From positions 124,001 through 188,000 of the forward strand of contig NZ_BRZC01000004.1 in NCBI RefSeq assembly GCF_030268005.1: a stretch of DNA of 64,000 bases. The letters run 5' to 3'. Each line of letters starts with the position of its first letter. Within the stretch, counting starts at the first letter, position 1. Source of the stretch: Microbacterium arabinogalactanolyticum (GTDB lineage: Bacteria > Actinomycetota > Actinomycetes > Actinomycetales > Microbacteriaceae). The translations under genes were made by a program, and so were the position numbers. The notes beneath the pieces were generated by a model. The model saw only the letters and a list, made by a program, of their open reading frames with translations, was not told the origin of the DNA and ran no database searches. This document shows, in pieces, positions 31,198-62,881 of this stretch.

Positions 31198-32730
31198 TCA
31201 GCGTCGCCGCCGCGCGATCACGCCGGCGGCGACCAGTGCCCCTTGGCCCCCGATCACCAGCGCGAGCTGGATCCACGGGCCCAGCAGCACACCAGCCGTG
31301 AGGCCGGAACGCAGTTCGACATCCTCGAGCAGCGCTCCGGCCTCATCTGCGTCCAGGGTCGCGACGGTGCTGCCGTCCGGCCGCATGATCTGGCTCGTGC
31401 CGACGGTCGAGATGTTCACCACGCTGCGACCGGTCTCGATCGCCCGCATCCGCGCGAACGCCAGCTGCTGCAGGTTCTCGTCCGTGCCGCGGAAGTCGGC
31501 GTTGTTGGTCTGGAACACGAGCACCTGGGCGCCGTGCTGCACGCCCTCCCGGATCACCTCGTCGTAGATCACGTCGAAGCAGATCGCGAGCCCCACGCCG
31601 ACGTCGCCGACCTTCACCAGCGGAGGGTTCGTCCCCGGCGTGTACTCCCGCTGCAGGAGACCGATCAGATCCGGGGCGAGCGCGTTGAAGAACTCGCGAT
31701 TCGGTACGTACTCGCCGAACGGCACCGGATGCCGCTTGTCGTGCAGCTGAGCCGCAGTGCCCTCGTCCGTCCACAGGAACGAGGTGTTGAAGATGTCCTT
31801 GCCGCGCTCTGTGGCCGCGTTGGCGAGGAGCGGCGCGTCCAGCCACGACACGACGCGGTTGAGCCGTCGAGCGGTGGAGGCGTCCTGGAACGGGTCGTAG
31901 TCGACACCGCCCTCGGGCCACACGATCAGGTCGGCCTTCTCGCCCTCCAGCGGCTCGGTCGCGGCCATCTGCGCGTCGATGACGCTGTACTGCTCCCTGG
32001 TGTCGAAATAGCCGGTCGGTCCGTTGCCCTGCACGGCCGCGATGCGCATGGTCCCCGCGTGTGCGGTCGGGAACACGGGCAGCAACAGCAGCACCAGCGC
32101 GGTGACGGCCGGCGTCACGAGCGCGAGAGGACGCCGCCAGGCGCGGGCGCGGATGATCTCGATGATCAGCGCGACAGCGAAGACCATGAGGAAGCTCAGT
32201 CCACTCACGCCCACCCAGGATGAGACGGGCGCGAAGGGCCCTTCGGCCTGGGTCATGCCCAGCCGGGCCCAGGGGAAGCCGCCGTAGGGCCAGTTGCCGA
32301 TGAACAGCTCCTGCGCAGTCCACAACGCGGCCACGATCGCGGGCAGTAGGATCGGACGGCTGCGCGGCCAGGCTCGCGGCATCCAGCGGTACGCGAGCGC
32401 GATCGGCAGCAGCGCGACGGCCGTCAGCACGCCCTCCACGACGGCCAGGGCGACCCACGGCACCGGCCCGAGATACCGTGCGACCCAGCCGACCAGCATC
32501 GAGTAGAAGACCAGGCCGTACACGCCGGTGACGAGGAGCGCGGACCAGAGACGGCGCCCGTCGAGGCAGACGATCAGGAGAGCGACCGCGACCAGCGCCA
32601 GCGGCCAGATCGCCAGCGAGGGGAAGGAGATGCTCATCAGCACGCCGGCGATCGCGGCCAGCCAGACCGCGAGCCACAGCGGCACGAGCGGGCGCACGGA
32701 TGCTGCGGGGCGAGTCCTTCCCACCGTCAC
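31198..32730 (-). CDS. lnt: Apolipoprotein N-acyltransferase
   Basis: 510 residues. Several N-terminal membrane spans (about 1-215), then an external nitrilase-like domain with catalytic Glu in VWPEGGVDY, Lys in LHDKRHPVPFGEY and Cys in GLAICFDVIYDEV, and a last helix near the C-terminus. It adds the third acyl chain to lipoproteins. No fused dolichol-phosphate mannosyl synthase domain, unlike the mycobacterial Ppm1/Lnt fusion. The GTG start overlaps the helY stop (GTGA). Confidence 0.94.
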   Translation of the reverse strand: MTVGRTRPAASVRPLVPLWLAVWLAAIAGVLMSISFPSLAIWPLALVAVALLIVCLDGRRLWSALLVTGVYGLVFYSMLVGWVARYLGPVPWVALAVVEGVLTAVALLPIALAYRWMPRAWPRSRPILLPAIVAALWTAQELFIGNWPYGGFPWARLGMTQAEGPFAPVSSWVGVSGLSFLMVFAVALIIEIIRARAWRRPLALVTPAVTALVLLLLPVFPTAHAGTMRIAAVQGNGPTGYFDTREQYSVIDAQMAATEPLEGEKADLIVWPEGGVDYDPFQDASTARRLNRVVSWLDAPLLANAATERGKDIFNTSFLWTDEGTAAQLHDKRHPVPFGEYVPNREFFNALAPDLIGLLQREYTPGTNPPLVKVGDVGVGLAICFDVIYDEVIREGVQHGAQVLVFQTNNADFRGTDENLQQLAFARMRAIETGRSVVNISTVGTSQIMRPDGSTVATLDADEAGALLEDVELRSGLTAGVLLGPWIQLALVIGGQGALVAAGVIARRRR

Positions 32731-35201
32731 ACTCCCGCGTAGGCGACGATGCCTCGCCGCACCCCGTCCAGGGCGCGCCGTGCGGTGGACGCGAGGTCAC
32801 CGTCGTCGGCGACGATCGAGAGCTGATCCAGCAGGTCGATGGTCTGCTTCGCCCAGCGCACGAAGTCGCCCGCCGCCATGTCGGCGTCGATCAGCACGCG
32901 GTCCAGTGAGCCCCCGCGCGCCCAGGAGTGCATGGCGGCCGCCAGGCCCGGCGCGAGCGGCTCGGTGCGCGGGAGGGAGTAGTCGTGCTCGATGTCGTCG
33001 AGCTCGGCCCACAGCCGCACGGTGGCGTCGTAGGCGATGCGGAACGCGCCACGAGGCAGGCCCCGCTCCCCCGCGTTCTGCTCGTCGCGTCGGGGTTCGT
33101 AGACGAGGCAGCTCGCCATCGCCGCGAGCGACGGCGCATCCAGGGTGCGCCAGAGGCCCTGGCGGAGCGCCTCGGCCACGAGCAGGTCTCGCTCGCCGTA
33201 GATCCGCTTCATGGTGCGTCCGGCATCGGTCAGCGAGAGGTCGTCGCCGTCACCCTCCACGTAGTCCACGACCCGGAGTACGTCGATGACGCGGTCGAAG
33301 GTGCGCGCGACCGTGCCGGTGCGGGTCTCGATCTGACGGCGGATGCGGTCGGTGTCGCGCTTGAGGCTGAAGTACCGCTCCGCCCAGCGCGCGTGCGCCT
33401 CACGATCGGGGCATCCGTGGCACGCGTGCCGCTGCATGCGGGTGCGGAGCGCCTGGATCTTGCGCATCCGCTTCTCCCGCGCGACCCGGGGACCGGCGGC
33501 GTCACGACGGTTCTTCTTCTCCAGGTCGCTGAGCTCGCGCCGGATGGCCGCATACTCCAGGAAGTCGTCCTGCTCGCACTGCATGGCCTTCTGATACCCC
33601 GCCAGCGACTCCTCGGCGTCCTTCACCTTGCGGGCCAGCCCGACCACCGCTCGGTCCGCCTGGAACTGGGCGAACGACGACTCCAGGATCTCGCGGGCGC
33701 GCGAGCGCCCGAACCGGTCGATGAGGTTCACCGCCATGTTGTACGTGGGGCGGAAGCTGGAGTTGAGCGGGTAGGTGCGGCGGGACGCGAGAGCGGCGAC
33801 GGCCTGGGGATCCATGCCCTCCGTCCACTGCACGACGGCATGGCCCTCGACGTCGATCCCGCGACGGCCCGCGCGTCCGGTCAGCTGCGTGTACTCGCCG
33901 GAGGTGATGGCGACACGGGCCTCGCCGTTGAACTTCTCCATCTTCTCGAGCACGACGGTGCGGGCGGGCATGTTGATGCCCAGAGCCAGGGTCTCGGTGG
34001 CGAAGACCGCCTTCACCAGCTTGCGCTGGAACAGCTCCTCGACGACCTCCTTGAACGCCGGGAGCAGACCGGCGTGGTGCGACGCGACGCCGCGCTCGAG
34101 GTCGTCGCGCCATTCCCAGAAGCCCAGGACGTCGAGATCCTCGTCCTGCAGGGATCGCGTGCGCTCATTGACGATCTCGCGGATCTCGGTGCGCTCCTCC
34201 TGCGTGGTGAGGCGGATTCCCGCCCGCCGCACCTGCTGCACGGCGGCATCGCAGCCGACCCTGCTGAAGATGAAGAAGATGGCCGGCAGCAGGTTCGACC
34301 GCTCCAGCAGCCGCACGACGTCCGGACGGTCCATCCGCTCGATGCGCCGCATGTTGGCGGACCGCACGGGCCTCTTCCCGCCCCTCGGGGGGCGCTTCGC
34401 CTGCCGTCCGGCATGGCGGTTGCTGGCGTATTCCTGGGCGCTGCGGTTGCTCTCGTACCGGGACCCGGTGAACGAGCGGATGCGGAACAGCTCCTGGTTC
34501 ACCTGCGCGGTCGCCATGCCTGCGCGGTCGTCGAACAGCGGCAGCAGGTCGTCCCGGACCAGCACGTGCTGCTCCAGAGGCACGGGCCGGATCTCGGAGA
34601 CGATCACGTCGGTGTCCCCGCGCACGGTGTCGAGCCAGTCGCCGAACTCCTCGGCGTTGGAGACCGTGGCACTGAGCGAGATCAGGCGCACCTCCTGCGG
34701 CAGGTGCAGGATGACCTCCTCCCAGACCGGTCCGCGGAATCGGTCGGCGAGGTAGTGCACCTCGTCCATCACCACGTAGCGCAGGCCTCGGAGCGAGTCC
34801 GAGCCGGCGTACAGCATGTTGCGCAGGACCTCGGTGGTCATCACCACGATGCGGGCGTTGCCGTTGATGTTGGTGTCGCCGGTGAGCAGCCCCACCTCAT
34901 CGGCCCCGTAGACGTCGACGAGTTCGCGGAACTTCTGGTTGGAGAGCGCCTTCATCGGCGTCGTGTAGAACGCCTTGTCGCCCGGCGTCTGCATCGCGAG
35001 ATGGATCGCGAACTCGCCGACGATCGTCTTGCCCGCTCCCGTGGGCGCGGCGACCAGCACGCTCCGGCCGCGCTCGAGCGCCTGGCAGGCATCGAGCTGG
35101 AACGGATCCAGAGCGAAGCGCTGTGCGGCGGCGAACTGCCGCGTCTGAGGATGCTGCGCCGCCGTCTGTGCGGATGCGTAGCGCTCAGCCGGCGAGCTCA
35201 T
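32727..35201 (-). CDS. helY: Ski2-like DEAD/DEAH-box RNA helicase (HelY)
   Basis: 824 residues. Walker A AAPTGAGKTIVGEF, DEVH box VMDEVHYLADRF, SAT motif SLSATVSN, and motif VI QLTGRAGRRGID. C-terminal DSHCT domain from about 660. Resembles Mtr4/Ski2 and mycobacterial HelY, but is about 80 residues shorter than the latter. It probably remodels structured RNA. A basic stretch GRQAKRPPRGGKRP sits between the two RecA-like lobes. Part of the minus-strand tat-helY-lnt block; its start overlaps the tatC stop (ATGA). Confidence 0.93.
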   Translation of the reverse strand: MSSPAERYASAQTAAQHPQTRQFAAAQRFALDPFQLDACQALERGRSVLVAAPTGAGKTIVGEFAIHLAMQTPGDKAFYTTPMKALSNQKFRELVDVYGADEVGLLTGDTNINGNARIVVMTTEVLRNMLYAGSDSLRGLRYVVMDEVHYLADRFRGPVWEEVILHLPQEVRLISLSATVSNAEEFGDWLDTVRGDTDVIVSEIRPVPLEQHVLVRDDLLPLFDDRAGMATAQVNQELFRIRSFTGSRYESNRSAQEYASNRHAGRQAKRPPRGGKRPVRSANMRRIERMDRPDVVRLLERSNLLPAIFFIFSRVGCDAAVQQVRRAGIRLTTQEERTEIREIVNERTRSLQDEDLDVLGFWEWRDDLERGVASHHAGLLPAFKEVVEELFQRKLVKAVFATETLALGINMPARTVVLEKMEKFNGEARVAITSGEYTQLTGRAGRRGIDVEGHAVVQWTEGMDPQAVAALASRRTYPLNSSFRPTYNMAVNLIDRFGRSRAREILESSFAQFQADRAVVGLARKVKDAEESLAGYQKAMQCEQDDFLEYAAIRRELSDLEKKNRRDAAGPRVAREKRMRKIQALRTRMQRHACHGCPDREAHARWAERYFSLKRDTDRIRRQIETRTGTVARTFDRVIDVLRVVDYVEGDGDDLSLTDAGRTMKRIYGERDLLVAEALRQGLWRTLDAPSLAAMASCLVYEPRRDEQNAGERGLPRGAFRIAYDATVRLWAELDDIEHDYSLPRTEPLAPGLAAAMHSWARGGSLDRVLIDADMAAGDFVRWAKQTIDLLDQLSIVADDGDLASTARRALDGVRRGIVAYAGV

Positions 35202-36016
35202 GCGGCGGCTGCGTCCGGATCGAGACCGTCCGCGATCCGCTTCTTCCGCTTACGACGGTCGAAGAGAAGCGACACTCCGGCCGCGGCGAAGTACAGCACG
35301 ATCAGGATGCCGCCGACCAGGAACATCGACCCGATGTCGGCCGCCGGCGTCGCGATGGCGGCGAACACGGAGGCGACGAGCACCGCGATCCGCCATCCCT
35401 TCAGCAGTCCCCGGCCCGTGATCACACCCGCGAGGTTCAGCGCCACCATGAACACCGGCAGCACGAACGAGATGCCGATCACCAGGATGAACTTGAGGAT
35501 GAAGTCGTAGTAGTACTCGGCGTCGAGGAAGTTCTTGCCGATGCCGGGAACGAATCCCGACATCACCTCGATCACGTGCGGCGCCACCCAGATCGCGACC
35601 GCACCACCGGCGAAGAAGAGCGGAATCGCCGCGACGACGAATCCGACCGTGTACTTGATCTCCTTCTTGGTGAGCCCGGGCACGATGAACGCCCAGATCT
35701 GCCAGAGCCAGATCGGTGCGGACAGCAGCAGGCCGATGGCGAGGGACATCCGCAGGCGGAGGTTGAATCCCGACGAGATCTTCGTGAACATCAGCGCGGC
35801 GAAGTCCTTGCCGCGCAGCGCGTTGATCTCGTTGATCGGCCACGCCATGAGCTTGAGCACCGGTTCGGTGAGGATCGCGGCGATCACCATGCCGATGACC
35901 AGCGCGATCACCGCGATGATCAGGCGCCGTCGAGCCTCCCTGAGGTGCTCGCCCAGCGACATCCGTCGATCGTGGCTCCCCTCGGAAGAAGGCGCGTCGA
36001 CGCTCAGTTCTGTCAC
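35198..36016 (-). CDS. tatC: Sec-independent protein translocase subunit TatC
   Basis: 272 residues, six membrane spans. The N-terminal MSLGEHLREARRRLI and the PxxPxxW-like region SAPIWLWQIWAFI with conserved FxxGxxF (PLFFAGGAVAIWV) are typical. Receptor for twin-arginine signal peptides. Ends in a basic tail DRRKRKKR. Lies 3 bp downstream of tatA. Confidence 0.96.
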   Translation of the reverse strand: MTELSVDAPSSEGSHDRRMSLGEHLREARRRLIIAVIALVIGMVIAAILTEPVLKLMAWPINEINALRGKDFAALMFTKISSGFNLRLRMSLAIGLLLSAPIWLWQIWAFIVPGLTKKEIKYTVGFVVAAIPLFFAGGAVAIWVAPHVIEVMSGFVPGIGKNFLDAEYYYDFILKFILVIGISFVLPVFMVALNLAGVITGRGLLKGWRIAVLVASVFAAIATPAADIGSMFLVGGILIVLYFAAAGVSLLFDRRKRKKRIADGLDPDAAAA

Positions 36017-36019
36017 GAC

Positions 36020-36277
36020 CTACGAGGCGCGGGGCGGTGTGTCCTGATCAGCAGGACGCTCAGCCGCCGGGGCTGCAGTACCGGTCGACGTCGCGGTGGT
36101 GCCGTCGGTGCCGGCCTCCGGGGCGTCGTCGTCCTTCATCGCCTTCATCTCGCCCTTGAACACGCGTGCGGACTGTCCCAGGCTCTTCGCCAGCGCCGGC
36201 AGCTTCGCCGCGCCGAACAGAAGAAGGATGATGATCAGAATGATCCACAGGTGCGGGCCTGCGAAAAGATTACCCAT
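36020..36277 (-). CDS. tatA: Twin-arginine translocase subunit TatA
   Basis: 85 residues. One N-terminal span LWIILIIILLLFGAAKLP, the hinge, then amphipathic helix LAKSLGQSARVFKGEMKAM and an acidic, low-complexity tail. Forms the transport pore with TatC. A promoter -10 (36311-36316, minus) lies at the end of pafC. Confidence 0.95.
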   Translation of the reverse strand: MGNLFAGPHLWIILIIILLLFGAAKLPALAKSLGQSARVFKGEMKAMKDDDAPEAGTDGTTATSTGTAAPAAERPADQDTPPRAS

Positions 36278-36308
36278 GGATTTCTCCTCTTGGTGGGTCG
36301 GATTCCGT

Positions 36309-37298
36309 TCAGTCTACCTGTGCCGGAGAGCCGTCGGGCACCGTGTAGAGGTCGAGTGCGGCGGATGCCCATTCCCGTGTCGCGCACCGCGCCAGAGGCG
36401 GGTCGAGCACCTCCAGCGCACCTCCGAATCGACCGGCGATCCGCTTGATCCCCCGGGGGTCCGCCATGCTCATGCGCACGGTGACGACGGCGTCGGCCCG
36501 GTCGATCTCCTCGTACGGGAAGGCGCCCAGCAGCGGCAGCATCCGCTCGGGAAGCCGCACGGTGACGTGATCCGAGACGTCGCCGCCCCCGCCGAACTCC
36601 GCCGGCACGGGCGCGTCGCCGTGGGTGATCGGGATCTCGGTCAGATGCGCATCGCTGACGCGGTCGAGATGGAACGTCCGCATCGCCTGCCGCAGATGGC
36701 ACCATCCCTGCAGATACCACTGCCCGTTCGTGATCAGGATCTGACGCGGGTCGACCGTGCGGGTGGTCGGCTCGGCATCCGGAGCCTGGTAACGGAACGC
36801 CACGGCGACGCCGTCGTGCAGCGCGCGCGAGACGACCTGCTGCACCTCGGTGACCTCCACCGGCGCGACGAGCAGATCGGGAGGTGCGTCGGCGGAGCCG
36901 CGGGAGAGCTTGGCGATCAGGCCGCTGACCAGTCCGGAGTCGGCCACCGCCGGCACCGCGGCGACGAGCTGGAGGCCGGCGAGCAGCGCCGCCGCCTCCC
37001 GGGCGGTGAACCGAGGAACACGGCGGAACGCGACGTCATGCGTGATCTCGATGATGTCGTGCTCGTCGAGCAGGTCCCAGTCGATGTCGAACATCTCCTG
37101 CGGGAGCTGCCAGTAGCCGGAATCGCCCGGCAGGCCGATCACCGTGAGCTTCTCGGCCATCGCCCGCATCTGCGCGGCGGTCACGCCGAACTCGGCCGCG
37201 GCCTCGTCGAGCGTGACCTGGCCGCGCTCGAGCAGGTACGGGACGAGCGTCAGGTACAGGCGCACGCGGTCCGCGGCCAGAAGCGGTGCGGAGCTCAT
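36309..37298 (-). CDS. pafC: WYL-domain transcriptional regulator PafC
   Basis: 329 residues. N-terminal winged helix (LYLTLVPYLLERGQVTLDEA), central WYL domain with QWYLQGWCHLRQAMRTFHLD, and a C-terminal WCX extension. With PafB it forms a heterodimer that activates the mycobacterial LexA-independent DNA-damage response. The start overlaps pafB by 4 bp (ATGA), as expected for obligate partners. Confidence 0.92.
   Translation of the reverse strand: MSSAPLLAADRVRLYLTLVPYLLERGQVTLDEAAAEFGVTAAQMRAMAEKLTVIGLPGDSGYWQLPQEMFDIDWDLLDEHDIIEITHDVAFRRVPRFTAREAAALLAGLQLVAAVPAVADSGLVSGLIAKLSRGSADAPPDLLVAPVEVTEVQQVVSRALHDGVAVAFRYQAPDAEPTTRTVDPRQILITNGQWYLQGWCHLRQAMRTFHLDRVSDAHLTEIPITHGDAPVPAEFGGGGDVSDHVTVRLPERMLPLLGAFPYEEIDRADAVVTVRMSMADPRGIKRIAGRFGGALEVLDPPLARCATREWASAALDLYTVPDGSPAQVD
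36311..36316 (-). promoter_or_regulatory. -10 box before tatA
   Basis: Minus-strand TAGACT, with a leader of about 28-34 nt that holds AAGAGGAG before ATG 36277. It overlaps the pafC stop region, so tatAC-helY-lnt can be expressed apart from pafBC. Confidence 0.45.
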
Positions 37299-38305
37299 TC
37301 GGCACTCCCCTCTCCGGCGACCGCGTCGGCGGCGTGCGCGTCGACGATCGCGTGCAGCCGCTGGATCACGCTGTCGCGGAGATCGGCGGGCTCCACGACC
37401 CGCACCTCCGGTCCGTAGGTGGCCAGTTCGTCGGCGAAGATGTGCCGGTCCACATAGGGGACGCGGATGCCCTGCACGGCGGGAACGCCCCGGCGGCCGA
37501 GCCGCAGGGCCGCCTCGGTCCCCGGCGTGATCTCGAGCAGGGCCTGCTGCGATGCGGCGACCTCGGCGAGACCCGCGAGCGCACGCTCCGCAGCGCCGTC
37601 GCGCGCCACGGGGTCGAAGCCCTGGCCGGTGACCTTCACATCGCTGACGATGCGGCTGAGCAGGAAGGTGCGCTCACCGTCGGCATCCACGTCGAACCCG
37701 TACAGATGCCAGCGCGATTCGTACTCGACCTGGACCAGCGGACGGACGCGGCGGCGCGTGGGCGCGTCCTCGCCCGGCTTCAGGTAGTCGAAGACGACGA
37801 CGCGGTTGCGTTCGATGCCCTCCTGCAGTGCGGGGAAGGCCGCGTCCTGCACGGCGATGCGCGGCGCGAACCCGATGATCGGCTCGTCGCCGTCGATGCC
37901 GAGCGCGCGGATCTTGCGGACGCCGGCCTGGGCGTCGGCGGAGACCGATTCGCTGCTCCACACGCTCCCGGCCAGGCGCAGCACGGCGAGCTCCGCATCC
38001 GAGAACTCGATGTCGGACGGCAGATCGTAGTCCGCCTGCGGAATCCGGTAGCGGGCCTCCCGCATGTCCTGAGGATCGGCCGGATCGCCGATGGTCTCCA
38101 CGGGCATCCCGAGCGCGCGCAGCTCGTCCTTGTCCCGCTCGAACATCTTCTCCAGCGAATCGGGCTTCGCGCCCGCTTCGACGCGCTGGCGGTACCCGGA
38201 GACGTTGTCGAGGATCTGCTGCTTGGTCAGGCCGATCTCCGTGGCCATCAGCGCCACGACGAGATTCGTCAGCCGCTCCTCCGCGGGGATCTGCGCCGGC
38301 GTCAT
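37295..38305 (-). CDS. pafB: WYL-domain transcriptional regulator PafB
   Basis: 336 residues from ATG 38305. N-terminal HTH region ERLTNLVVALMATEIGLTKQ; WYL domain with RWHLYGFDVDADGERTFLLS; C-terminal WCX domain. Partner of PafC. In most actinobacteria pafBC follow pafA of the Pup-ligation system; here they follow an FKBP lipoprotein and no Pup gene is present. Confidence 0.92.
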   Translation of the reverse strand: MTPAQIPAEERLTNLVVALMATEIGLTKQQILDNVSGYRQRVEAGAKPDSLEKMFERDKDELRALGMPVETIGDPADPQDMREARYRIPQADYDLPSDIEFSDAELAVLRLAGSVWSSESVSADAQAGVRKIRALGIDGDEPIIGFAPRIAVQDAAFPALQEGIERNRVVVFDYLKPGEDAPTRRRVRPLVQVEYESRWHLYGFDVDADGERTFLLSRIVSDVKVTGQGFDPVARDGAAERALAGLAEVAASQQALLEITPGTEAALRLGRRGVPAVQGIRVPYVDRHIFADELATYGPEVRVVEPADLRDSVIQRLHAIVDAHAADAVAGEGSAE

Positions 38306-39213
38306 CCCCGGACCAGCTCCGGCGGGACGATGCCCAGCACGTCGACGACGTAGGCGATCGCGTCGCCGCCGGTCTTCTCGGGGTCGACGACGAGGATCTG
38401 GCTGCCGACGGTCGACTTCGCGACCTGCGCCATCACCTGCGGCGGAAGGGTGGAGGTGTCGTACACGACGCCCTTCTCCCACGACGAACCTGTCACGGCA
38501 CGGGTCGACCACTTCACGGCGGTGTACTGGAACATCGCCAGTCCCTTGCCGACCTTCGCGCCGTCGCCCTCGATCAGGGTCTCGGTCACGAGCTTCTTCG
38601 GAGCCGCGCCGTCGGGGATGATGATGCCCGGCTGCCCGCTGGGCGCGCGCACCACCGACGGGATTCCCTGTGCGTCGTTGAACACGTCGCGACCCTGCGC
38701 CTTGGGCAGCAGCACCTCCTGGATGTCGATCGTGCCGACGATGCTCTCATCGGGACCGAGTCCGACCTGCGCGGCCATTCCCTCCGGAAGGTCCTTCGCG
38801 GGCACCGCGAACGCGACGCGGGAGCCGTTGGTGGCGCACTGCAGGGCCGAGCCGATGCCGCCGAACTGCTCGCTGAGGGACTTCGGCGACCAGACGCCGG
38901 CACCGCTGTCGATCATCTGACCGGTGGCGCCGTTCAGCAGGGTGATGGAGCCGACGACGTCCTGGGTCTCTTCGCGCACGACCGCGCCGTCGCCGACCAC
39001 GAGGTCGTCGTAGACCACCTTCGACGTCGGCATCGGCGCAGTCAGGCTCACCTTCGCGGCGCCGATGTCACCGCTCGCCTTGACCGCCATCGAGAGCGCG
39101 GCGGACTCGCTGCGCTCGCAACCGGCGGCGCCGGATCCCGGCGCGGTCGAGCAGCCCGTCAGGACGAGAGCGGACAGGGCGAGGGCCGAGACGGCAGCGG
39201 TCGTTTTACGCAC
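38302..39213 (-). CDS. FKBP-type peptidyl-prolyl isomerase lipoprotein
   Basis: 303 residues. Signal peptide with lipobox VLTGC (about 19-23), then a poorly conserved half and a C-terminal FKBP domain with LIEGDGAKVGKGLAMFQYTA. Several active-site aromatics are not obvious, so isomerase activity may be weak. Likely an extracytoplasmic folding factor. The GTG at 39213 is set by TAGACT seven bases upstream; this -10 begins with the trmI stop codon. Confidence 0.85.
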   Translation of the reverse strand: MRKTTAAVSALALSALVLTGCSTAPGSGAAGCERSESAALSMAVKASGDIGAAKVSLTAPMPTSKVVYDDLVVGDGAVVREETQDVVGSITLLNGATGQMIDSGAGVWSPKSLSEQFGGIGSALQCATNGSRVAFAVPAKDLPEGMAAQVGLGPDESIVGTIDIQEVLLPKAQGRDVFNDAQGIPSVVRAPSGQPGIIIPDGAAPKKLVTETLIEGDGAKVGKGLAMFQYTAVKWSTRAVTGSSWEKGVVYDTSTLPPQVMAQVAKSTVGSQILVVDPEKTGGDAIAYVVDVLGIVPPELVRG

Positions 39214-39220
39214 GCGCCCC

Positions 39221-39226
39221 AGTCTA
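39221..39226 (-). promoter_or_regulatory. -10 box of the FKBP gene, overlapping the trmI stop codon
   Basis: Minus-strand TAGACT; TAG (39226-39224) is the trmI stop. 7 nt to GTG 39213. Confidence 0.5.
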
Positions 39227-40234
39227 TTCCGAAGCGCTGTCGCCCTCGCGCGATGCGGCGGCGGTGCGCGCGCCGTTCGCGGCCTTCTGCGCCTCGCGCA
39301 CCCGCTTGCGCAGGTTCTTGTCCGTGATCTCGCGATCGCCGACCGCGCCGGGGGTCCACAGCTCCACGTCCTCGTCGCCGTAGCTGGACTTGGAGGCTCG
39401 GCGCTTGACCTCGGGAGGAACGGCACCCGGCGCCAGGCGCCGCGCGGTCAGCAGGAACCCGGTGTGCGCGACCATCCTGTGGTCGGGTCGGACGGCCAGT
39501 CCCTCGACGTGCCATCCACGGACCATGGTCTCGGAGGCGTCCGGATCGGTGAACAGCCCCGTGCCGCGGATGTACTCCGCGACGCGGGACAGCTGGGTGG
39601 CGGTGGCGACATAGCAGATCACCACACCGCCGGGGGCGAGGGCGTCGGCGACGACGTCCATGCACTCCCAGGGTGCGAGCATGTCGAGGACGACGCGATC
39701 CACCGTGCCGGCCTCGAACTGGGCGGGCAGCTCCTCGGCGAGGTCGCCTACGACGACGCTCCAGGTGTCGGGCGTCTCGCCGAAGAAGGTCTCGACGTTC
39801 GCGCGCGCCACCTCCGCGAAGTCGTCGCGCCGCTCGAAGGACGTCAGCCTGCCCTCGTGGCCGATCGCCCGGAGGAGGGCGAGCGAGAGCGCGCCGGAGC
39901 CGACGCCGGCCTCGACGACGACAGCACCGGGGAAGATGTCGGCCTGCATGACGATCTGCGCCGAGTCCTTGGGGTACACGATCGCCGCGCCGCGCGGCAT
40001 CGACATCGCGAAGTCCCGCAGCAGCGGACGCAGCGCCAGGTAGTCGTGTCCGCCGCTGTTGGTCACGACGGAGCCGTCCGGCTGCCCGATCAGCTGGGTG
40101 TGCTTGAGCACTCCGTGATGGGTGTGCAGCTCACCGTCTCCGCGCAGCGTGATGGTGTGCATCCGTCCCTTGGGGCCGGTCAGCTGCACGCGGTCGCCCT
40201 CTCGGAACGGCCCGCGGGGTCGATTGGCGCTCAT
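39224..40234 (-). CDS. trmI: tRNA (adenine-58-N1)-methyltransferase TrmI
   Basis: 336 residues. An N-terminal beta domain (REGDRVQLTGPKGRMHTI), then a SAM fold with motif I VVVEAGVGSGALSLALL and DRVVLDMLAPWECM. Makes m1A58 in the T loop of tRNAs; a tetramer in relatives. AAGGAG lies 6 nt before ATG 40234. The C-terminal tail is Lys/Arg/Ala-rich. Overlaps the HAD gene by 4 bp (ATGA). Confidence 0.93.
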   Translation of the reverse strand: MSANRPRGPFREGDRVQLTGPKGRMHTITLRGDGELHTHHGVLKHTQLIGQPDGSVVTNSGGHDYLALRPLLRDFAMSMPRGAAIVYPKDSAQIVMQADIFPGAVVVEAGVGSGALSLALLRAIGHEGRLTSFERRDDFAEVARANVETFFGETPDTWSVVVGDLAEELPAQFEAGTVDRVVLDMLAPWECMDVVADALAPGGVVICYVATATQLSRVAEYIRGTGLFTDPDASETMVRGWHVEGLAVRPDHRMVAHTGFLLTARRLAPGAVPPEVKRRASKSSYGDEDVELWTPGAVGDREITDKNLRKRVREAQKAANGARTAAASREGDSASE

Positions 40235-40905
40235 GCGTTCTCCTTGGCGTGGCGGCCGGCGAGGTCGCGGATGTCGGCGGACGTGCGTCCCGCGAGCGTC
40301 GGCCACAGTTCATGCGCGTCCGAGCCGTCCAGGGAGACGATGTGCGGCACGCCCAGGGTGACCGCACCGGATGCCCGGCCCGCGGCGACTCCGGTGCCGG
40401 AGTCCTCGATCACGACGGCATCCGCGATGTCGATCTCCAGCAGCTCGGCGGCTCGCAGGTACGGGTCGGGGAAGGGCTTGGGGCGCGCGACGTCATCCCC
40501 GGCGACCACGAGGTCGAAGGCGTCGAAGTCGATCAGGGAGACGACGTCGAGGGCCATGCGGCGCAGCGACATGGTCACCAGGGCCGTGGGGATGCCGTTG
40601 GCGCGCAGGTCTGCGAGCAGCTCGCGAGCGCCGTGCCGGAACGGGACCCCCTCGCTGCGGAGGCGATGGGCGACGGCATCCGTGAGGTGCTGGACGATGG
40701 CGTCCGCCTCCATGTCGACGCCGTACCTCTGCAGGATCAGAGCGCTGTCGTGCAGACCGTTGCCGACCAGCTGGAGCGCGTCCTCATGGGTCCACGTGCC
40801 GCCGAACGACTCGACCAGGACGGTCTCGGCATCCATCCAGTACGGCTCGGTGTCGACGAGGGTTCCGTCCATGTCCCACAGGACTGCGCTGGGCTTGTTG
40901 CTCAC
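40231..40905 (-). CDS. HAD-family hydrolase (phosphatase/phosphonatase-like)
   Basis: 224 residues. Motif I WDMDGTLVDTE gives nucleophile and acid Asp; motif II TMSL; motif III K in DVARPKPFPDPYL; motif IV VVIEDSGTG. A cap domain sits between motifs I and II (about 20-90), as in beta-phosphoglucomutase-like members. Substrate unknown. GTG 40905 is preferred over ATG 40914, because that ATG lies inside the TAGCAT -10 box. Confidence 0.88.
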   Translation of the reverse strand: MSNKPSAVLWDMDGTLVDTEPYWMDAETVLVESFGGTWTHEDALQLVGNGLHDSALILQRYGVDMEADAIVQHLTDAVAHRLRSEGVPFRHGARELLADLRANGIPTALVTMSLRRMALDVVSLIDFDAFDLVVAGDDVARPKPFPDPYLRAAELLEIDIADAVVIEDSGTGVAAGRASGAVTLGVPHIVSLDGSDAHELWPTLAGRTSADIRDLAGRHAKENA

Positions 40906-41006: not shown

Positions 41007-41849
41007 GTGGACGCTCTCGGCTCACGCATCATCGTCGCCGCGTTCGACGGCTGGAACGACGCCGGCGAGGCTGCCAGTGGCGCCATCGGCGCACTGCGCG
41101 AGGCGGGGAGCTACGAGGCCGTGCACTCCGTCGATCCCGAGCTGTACTTCGACTATCAGTACACGCGTCCCTCGTCCCGCATGGACGCCTCCGGCCACCG
41201 CGAGCTGCACTGGCCGGACGCCACGCTGTGGCGCCCCACGAGCACGACCGCGGGCCCTGAGCTGTGGCTGCTCACCGGTTCGGAGCCTGCACGGGCGTGG
41301 CAGGCGTTCGCCACGGAGTTCATCGACGTGGCGCTGCGCGACGACGTGACCGGGCTGGTCACGCTGGGGGCGATGCTCTCGGATGTGCCGCACACCCGTC
41401 CCATCTCGATCTTCGCGTCGAGCCAGAACGAGCGTGTGCGCGCTGCGCACGGCCTGGACAAGTCCACCTACGAGGGGCCGGTGGGCATCCTGAGCGTCTT
41501 CGAGCACTTCGCCGAACGCGCCGAGATCCCCTCCGCGAGCCTGTGGGCCAGCGTGCCGCACTACGTCGCGACCGCGGCTCCCTCGCCGAAGGCGACCCTG
41601 GCGCTGCTGGATCGGCTCGAGGAGCTCACCGGCGTCGGCCCCGCCCGCGAGCACCTGCGCACCGCGGCCGCGGCCTGGGAGGCGTCGATCGACGCCGCTG
41701 CAGCCGAGGACGAGGACATGACCGAGTACATCCACCAGCTGGAGCGGACACGCGACACCTGGGACTCGCCCGATGCCTCCGGCGACGCCATCGCCCAGGC
41801 CTTCGAGCGCTACCTGCGCCGCCGGGGCGACGGCCCCGACAGGAAGTGA
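41007..41849 (+). CDS. PAC2-family protein
   Basis: 280 residues. N-terminal IIVAAFDGWNDAGEAAS and VTLGAMLSDVPHTRPI are PAC2 hallmarks. The family is related to archaeal and eukaryal proteasome assembly chaperones; its bacterial role is unproven. In many actinobacteria this gene lies near trmI and the proteasome genes, so its presence fits the neighbourhood even though the Pup genes are absent. The GTG start follows AGGAGGGAG by about 7 nt. Confidence 0.88.
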   Translation: MDALGSRIIVAAFDGWNDAGEAASGAIGALREAGSYEAVHSVDPELYFDYQYTRPSSRMDASGHRELHWPDATLWRPTSTTAGPELWLLTGSEPARAWQAFATEFIDVALRDDVTGLVTLGAMLSDVPHTRPISIFASSQNERVRAAHGLDKSTYEGPVGILSVFEHFAERAEIPSASLWASVPHYVATAAPSPKATLALLDRLEELTGVGPAREHLRTAAAAWEASIDAAAAEDEDMTEYIHQLERTRDTWDSPDASGDAIAQAFERYLRRRGDGPDRK

Positions 41850-62848: not shown

Positions 62849-62875
62849 CGGGACGCCGATGTCGGTGGCCGTCCT

Positions 62876-62881
62876 TATGTT
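62876..62881 (+). promoter_or_regulatory. Possible -10 box of the 62921 gene
   Basis: TATGTT, with a leader of about 33 nt containing AAGGAGG. Confidence 0.35.

Follow-up and report, generated by a model that had tools for sequence, protein, structure and literature searches.

A probable ancestral deletion of the Pup-proteasome genes next to a retained pafBC pair in Microbacteriaceae

We have analysed a stretch of 64,000 nt from Microbacterium arabinogalactanolyticum (NZ_BRZC01000004.1, positions 124,001–188,000; hereafter the window, whose coordinates are used throughout), which carries the usual neighbours of the Pup-proteasome system (PPS), among them the genes of the damage regulators PafB and PafC, and no PPS gene between them. 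Overall, it is very probable that the PPS genes were deleted in an ancestor of the Microbacteriaceae, that PafBC was kept as a damage activator, that the pocket of PafB was changed, and that the damage response is reset by other proteases. What seems to be new here is an apparently intact PafBC regulon without PPS, together with a PafB pocket changed in all the 41 sequences compared.

The trmI–FKBP junction and the missing genes

On the minus strand, the genes run 5' to 3' as HAD, trmI, FKBP-like lipoprotein, pafB, pafC, tatA, tatC, helY and lnt, and the PAC2 gene lies divergently from HAD on the plus strand. The stop of trmI is at 39224 and the GTG start of the FKBP-like gene is at 39213, with exactly 10 bp in between. 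Pfam matches support HAD, TrmI, PafC (HTH_PafC, WYL, WCX), PafB (WYL, WCX), TatA, TatC and PAC2. Thus trmI stands on one side and FKBP-pafB-pafC on the other; the original prediction had named HAD and trmI, FKBP-pafB-pafC-tatA-tatC and the 10 bp, of which FKBP holds by orthology and position, the other genes by Pfam, and the gap to the base.

Profile searches of the whole genome (3.67 Mb, 13 contigs, completeness 100) gave no match for Pup, PafA/Dop, Arc or the 20S subunits. The family was represented by 249 Microbacteriaceae genomes of 85 genera, drawn evenly from a larger group; in 225 of the 249, completeness is 90% or more and contamination 5% or less. The assignment to the Microbacteriaceae follows from the nearest named ClpX loci, which belong to Microbacterium (87–91%) and then to Cryobacterium, Amnibacterium, Labedella, Agromyces, Curtobacterium and Agrococcus. 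In these profile searches, PafA/Dop, 20S proteasome subunits, Arc and Pup were each found over the cut-off in 0/249, and the positive control, Corynebacterium glutamicum, was matched by the PafA/Dop, Pup and Arc profiles. The components by which a PPS is recognised, namely Pup, the PafA ligase and Dop, with Mpa/Arc and/or the 20S core, were thus each found over the cut-off in none of the family genomes.

Two matches lie under the cut-off, and we have taken both as chance. One is a 22-bit Pup match within a 277-aa open frame of genome G065; the other is a Pup_ligase match in genome G615 (E 7e-4), the sole and weakest PafA/Dop match from the window's family in an order-wide search and presumably the single one under the cut-off there. 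A module relocated or diverged past recognition could draw on these two, each from one family genome, and on Pup being short and fast-evolving. Four profile searches, however, including those for the well-conserved PafA/Dop and Arc, were negative over the cut-off in 249/249, and PafA/Dop of order genomes outside the Microbacteriaceae score between E 3e-118 and 2e-194, the incomplete G457 and G467 apart, which makes this explanation scarcely credible. Since neither this genome nor any of the 249 sampled yielded a pup, dop, pafA, mpa or prcBA gene over the cut-off, the original prediction of a loss or relocation of the whole module stands for the loss and falls for the relocation.

In the order, 354/396 genomes were matched by the PafA/Dop profile, and each of the 19 other families sampled is represented among them. 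Among the 42 genomes without a match, the 20 listed are all Microbacteriaceae, and the other 22 include G251 and G299 of family f4; some loss therefore exists elsewhere in the order. Across the phylum 93/193 genomes match PafA/Dop, so that the absence of PPS as such is not unique. Proteasome-associated proteins had already been noted as absent from two of four surveyed actinobacteria (PMC4255298). What stands out is that every sampled member of a large family is without the PPS, inside an order where its locus is otherwise general. As all 19 other families have PafA/Dop and 0/249 Microbacteriaceae do, the loss should be ancestral.

We have compared 15 sister loci, one from each of 15 other families of the order, with 20 Microbacteriaceae loci. 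The order trmI-arc-dop-pup-(prcB-prcA)-pafA-FKBP, which the original prediction had described for many actinobacteria (with arc/mpa), is found in 11/15 sister loci (L031, L033–L036, L038, L039, L041–L044; L038 without prcBA). The module thus fills, in 11/15 sister loci, the site that measures 10 bp in the window, and the trmI–FKBP distance in the 11 sister loci with both ends found is 5077–12979 bp. L037 has the same order with FKBP undetected, and L040 is ended by its contig. In L032 (f5), dop-pup-prcBA-pafA-FKBP-pafBC is present with neither trmI nor arc within 9 kb beyond dop, and in L045 (f15) dop-pup stand alone, trmI, arc, pafA and FKBP not being found in 19.8 kb. These two PPS loci are either rearranged or distant from the flanks, L032 on the trmI side and L045 on both. 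In the family, PAC2-HAD-trmI-FKBP-pafB-pafC-tatA-tatC-helY occurs in 20/20 loci, no PPS gene was found in any of these 20, and the trmI–FKBP gap is 1–96 bp in 18/20. Of the remaining two, L054 has an additional FKBP copy in the gap, whose FKBP residues look canonical by eye, and L059 has an unrelated open reading frame (ORF). The latter gap is ~1.4 kb, and its long ORF resembles, by eye, a GH10 xylanase.

The simplest reading is one clean deletion ancestral to the Microbacteriaceae and not particular to this genome. It would be undercut if relatives carried the ancestral PPS at another locus, and the 11 of 15 sister loci have it at the same site. Alternatively, the order may never have had a PPS at this site, the sister families having acquired the module there, and horizontal transfer has indeed been named as the origin of bacterial proteasomes (PMC6466877). 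This is very improbable, since PafA/Dop occur in all 19 other families, the 11 syntenic loci, each of another family, share gene order and flanks, and pafBC lie close downstream of pafA in Actinobacteria (PMC8223512). Compared with the actinobacterial PPS locus, the window has the same flanks as the sister families and the same neighbouring regulators, pafB-pafC, but all PPS genes are gone, whereas the reduction described in PMC8223512 and PMC6466877 is the loss of prcBA alone, with pupylation kept. A full-text literature search returned nothing on Microbacteriaceae pupylation or Microbacterium PafBC, and papers naming both Microbacteriaceae and the proteasome did not, judging by title and opening of the abstract, treat this absence; subscription papers may contain an earlier report.

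Retention of PafBC and its promoter elements

The PafC-type helix-turn-helix was found in 244/249 Microbacteriaceae genomes (239 over the cut-off) by profile search, and both pafB and pafC, adjoining each other, in the 40 family loci examined, which bears out the original prediction that PafBC was left behind. In the window the two genes are adjacent, with WYL and WCX domains in both products and HTH_PafC in PafC. This WYL-WCX architecture is common to the Mycobacterium activator (PDB 7p5x, 9fnd) and to that of Arthrobacter aurescens (6sj9), and the segment MFERDK-ELR of the window PafB is shared with M. smegmatis PafB.

The published PafBC motif is tTGTCRgtg-N8-TannnT (PMC5656591). Allowing at most one mismatch, the own genome has 73 matches, 12 of them exact, versus 16 for the reversed pattern. 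Of 70 matches examined further, 30 keep the core and the -10 element, and 23 of these 30 are followed at +4 to +9 by a start codon with an open frame of 80 codons or more, 21 of the 23 at 6–7 nt; at random positions, such a start codon occurs in 1891/20000. By profile, 13 of the 23 well-placed genes are DNA-repair or nucleic-acid genes, namely uvrB, uvrA, a RarA-like ATPase, ligA, sbcD, recA, a PcrA/UvrD helicase, mfd, xth, a 305-aa 5'-3' exonuclease resembling the N-terminal region of DNA polymerase I, an RNase_T exonuclease, a ResIII/DEAD helicase (encoded in the window) and an AlkZ-like glycosylase. Several of them were identified from N-terminal pieces ended by the locus border, so that their scores stay under the cut-offs for full-length proteins. 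For recA, the frame begins at +5, and because its RecA domain begins at residue 39, the true start may lie lower. The genes of an O6-methylguanine methyltransferase and rmuC have the element with a mismatch elsewhere. That is, promoters of the RecA-NDp type stand before DNA-repair genes as sequence motifs, and the genes behind them are predicted PafBC targets. As in Mycobacterium, both the motif and DNA-repair genes behind it are present; the difference is that the elements here mostly lie 6–7 nt from start codons and that no PPS is left to reset the response.

Considering this promoter motif, the retained PafBC looks functional, and it is probably no relic of the PPS. A decaying remnant without regulatory role would fit the lost pocket residues of PafB described below, as well as the five of 249 genomes without PafC match, all of which are small (0.9–1.9 Mb). 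We nevertheless consider it improbable, as PafC is matched in the 244 others, the MFERDK-ELR segment is shared with M. smegmatis, and the motif is enriched and placed on DNA-repair genes.

Some loci of other families show a PPS or FKBP end without pafB/pafC downstream in the stretch examined (L331, L338, L349, L036 (f14); L330, L342, L348 (f9); L334 (f8); L038 (f3)). PPS and PafBC may thus separate in the opposite direction too, with the PPS kept without adjacent pafBC.

The WYL pockets of PafB and PafC

We have aligned the window PafB to M. smegmatis PafB (7p5x_AY), where H200, A208 and L215 correspond to Y196, R204 and R211 of the pocket for single-stranded DNA (ssDNA). The sample comprises 41 Microbacteriaceae sequences, i.e., the window and 40 genomes, of 38 genera in all; the 40 were picked among the top-ranking PafC matches listed, so that the sample does not extend to the most divergent small genomes. 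For sister families, residues come from 21 PafB sequences out of 34 loci (one is cut, and 12 are without PafB found). At R211, the family has L in 41/41, and the sisters have R in 19 and K in 2. The Y196 column is H in 34, M in 3, L in 3 and V in 1 of the family, and Y in 21/21 sisters. At R204, arginine is kept in 1 of the 41, with a gap in another, and the sisters have R in 20 and K in 1. The ssDNA-binding residues of the PafB pocket are thus not all conserved, those at R211, Y196 and R204 being replaced across the Microbacteriaceae relative to Mycobacterium.

In M. smegmatis, the PafB double change R211A/R214A and the single change Y196A each abolished ssDNA binding in vitro, and a pair mutant of the PafC pocket kept it (PMC11804915). 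PafB of the family therefore appears to have lost residues needed for ssDNA binding in mycobacteria, which is newly found here. On the other hand, the substitutions may be neutral, with R181, R208, R214 and the PafC pocket still binding ssDNA as in mycobacteria. R181 and R214 are indeed R in 41/41 family sequences and the R208 column is R in 31 and K in 10; in addition, M. smegmatis mutants of a single pocket were moderately defective in vivo, those of both pockets reaching knockout level (PMC6789036). Set against this are the abolished binding in vitro and the R211 change fixed in 41/41 in a column that is R or K in 21/21 sisters, so that we regard neutrality as quite possible, somewhat short of probable.

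The family keeps its PafC pocket: W, Y and R204 are invariant (41/41), and R201 is present in 38/41, the three sequences of the window's genus having H instead. With residues of the PafB pocket lost and the PafC pocket kept, damage sensing would most likely depend on PafC or on an altered geometry of the ligand. We have also considered that positive charge had moved between the pockets, out of PafB and into PafC, and rejected it: the median net charge of the PafB WYL domain is 3 versus 6 in sisters and that of PafC is 1 versus 2, not higher, so simple charge compensation is unsupported. In three loci of the PPS-bearing family f7 (L039, L343, L344), PafC is without both pocket arginines (FSVDN or FAVDN for FRLDR) and PafB keeps its own, a mirror image of the Microbacteriaceae.

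In trees, the Microbacteriaceae PafB form one clade with support 100/100, whose stem measures 1.56 changes per column, with a median tip of 0.25 (62 rows). For PafC, the stem is 1.49 + 0.30 on the two sides of the midpoint root, with a median tip of 0.32 (59 rows), and for the product of the adjacent trmI it is 0.23 + 0.17, with a median tip of 0.26 (34 rows). Compared with TrmI, PafB and PafC thus have stems ~4 times as long, the row sets of the trees being different. PAC2 was unsuitable as a control, its tree having six sister rows and one extreme branch.

Resetting of the response, neighbouring genes and implications

Mycobacteria dispose of RecA and other upregulated proteins via pupylation (PMC8223512, PMC6466877, PMC8151990); here, other proteases must reset the response. 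The clpX gene of the own genome has an exact PafBC-type element 75 nt upstream. Among the loci whose protein scored best, at most 30 from each search, the strict clpX element is found in 12/33 family loci (own included) and 0/26 sister loci, with loose matches in 8 family loci; TAGGCT is conserved upstream of clpX in 32/33 family loci. The positive control, uvrB, has the element in 14/26 other loci and 3/4 family loci. Among named clpX loci, the strict element is present in 5/13 Microbacteriaceae and in 7/67 others (Arthrobacter, Paenarthrobacter, Brevibacterium and Demequina among them), by which clpX as a family-specific PafBC target is weakened. Control of clpX by PafBC is thus a lead, not a result, and because clpX often carries the element in the family, ClpXP might be a candidate for the reset. 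A fully re-wired PafBC, with PafB not sensing ssDNA as in mycobacteria, sensing moved to PafC or another ligand, clpX under PafBC control and ClpXP replacing the clean-up by pupylation, is a speculative and rather unlikely extension. In one record titled Vibrio cholerae strain 35D (L248), the ClpX is actinobacterial, at 73% to the query and like that of Arthrobacter; this assembly is probably mislabelled or contaminated.

The features are collected in Table 1. The FKBP-like protein of the window has zero Pfam matches, even at E 0.1, and its identity comes from orthologue alignment and position. Its FKBP label is upheld to that extent, though not by a domain match; since FKBP_C is matched by 26/30 aligned FKBP orthologues but not by the window copy, the isomerase domain of the latter seems degenerate. 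The PAC2 gene, as foreseen, was left behind beside the locus. It shares with actinobacterial PAC2 proteins (ParJ/SCO1997-like, discussed in PMC4255298) the PAC2 domain and the place beside the locus, but is kept here in genomes without a proteasome. As it is present in 20/20 Microbacteriaceae loci without proteasome genes, an obligate role of PAC2 proteins in proteasome assembly is unlikely.

Table 1 Features of the pafBC neighbourhood and PafBC-type elements in the window.
Feature	Position	Strand	Basis or remark
HAD-family hydrolase, flanking the ancestral PPS locus on the left	40231–40905	-	Pfam HAD_2 6e-28; same place in 20/20 family loci
trmI-like tRNA methyltransferase, left border of the putative deletion	39224–40234	-	TrmI-like_N, GCD14; adjoins arc in sister loci
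10-bp junction, site of arc-dop-pup-(prcBA)-pafA in sister families	39214–39223		Sequence; sister loci; gap 1–96 bp in 18/20 family loci
FKBP-like lipoprotein, apparently degenerate, without FKBP_C match	38302–39213	-	Orthologue alignment, Pfam
pafB, WYL and WCX domains	37295–38305	-	Pfam; PDB 6sj9, 7p5x, 9fnd
PafB His200 (M. smegmatis Y196, WYL triplet)	37706–37708	-	Alignment to 7p5x_AY; column count
PafB Leu215 (M. smegmatis R211, ssDNA-pocket Arg)	37661–37663	-	Alignment to 7p5x_AY; column count
pafC, HTH_PafC-WYL-WCX	36309–37298	-	Pfam; PDB 6sj9, 7p5x
tatA	36020–36277	-	Pfam TatA_B_E
tatC	35198–36016	-	Pfam TatC, TIGR00945
helY-like DSHCT helicase, right flank	32727–35201	-	Pfam DSHCT, DEAD
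PAC2-family protein, divergent from HAD	41007–41849	+	Pfam PAC2 7.5e-47
PafBC-type promoter element, one mismatch, 6 nt before the ResIII/DEAD helicase start codon	47796–47817	-	Motif scan; helicase domains
PafBC-type promoter element, exact, 39 nt upstream of a short ORF	62860–62881	+	Motif scan

Taken together, the findings suggest the following course. In an ancestor of the Microbacteriaceae, as the comparison shows, arc-dop-pup-(prcBA)-pafA was deleted between trmI and FKBP, with the flanks left intact and no second copy. PafBC would have been kept and would still activate transcription on DNA damage: by homology, it would adapt the housekeeping sigma-RNA polymerase to TGTCGG-N10-TANNNT promoters, which mostly lie 6–7 nt before the start codons and would yield leaderless mRNAs of DNA-repair genes. 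Here the motif and its position are observed, from which we infer the activity and the leaderlessness. On the same stem, PafB lost R211, Y196 and R204 of its ssDNA pocket, with PafC keeping its own.

Several observations, besides the five small genomes without PafC match and the clpX elements outside the family, weigh against this course. The PafC profile is unspecific, with matches in 5/14 control genomes (3 over the cut-off). Of the motif matches with a broken -10, 11/36 also have a start codon at +4 to +9, and 10 of the 23 well-placed genes are not recognised as repair genes, a transporter and DUF3644 and LTD proteins among them. M. smegmatis Y196A, without ssDNA binding, kept its association with RNA polymerase (PMC11804915). 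Fast evolution is general in PafB and PafC. In f7, which has a PPS, the PafB stem is just as long (1.62), and it is PafC that has lost its arginines, so that acceleration does not mark PPS loss in particular. The loss of the PPS and the change of the pocket are thus linked by coincidence on a branch, not by causation.

Even so, a large family that has uncoupled the PPS from PafBC amounts to a natural deletion. It lets one ask whether pupylation is needed to end the damage response and which WYL pocket of PafBC senses the damage, and the PafB substitutions name residues relevant to this sensing.

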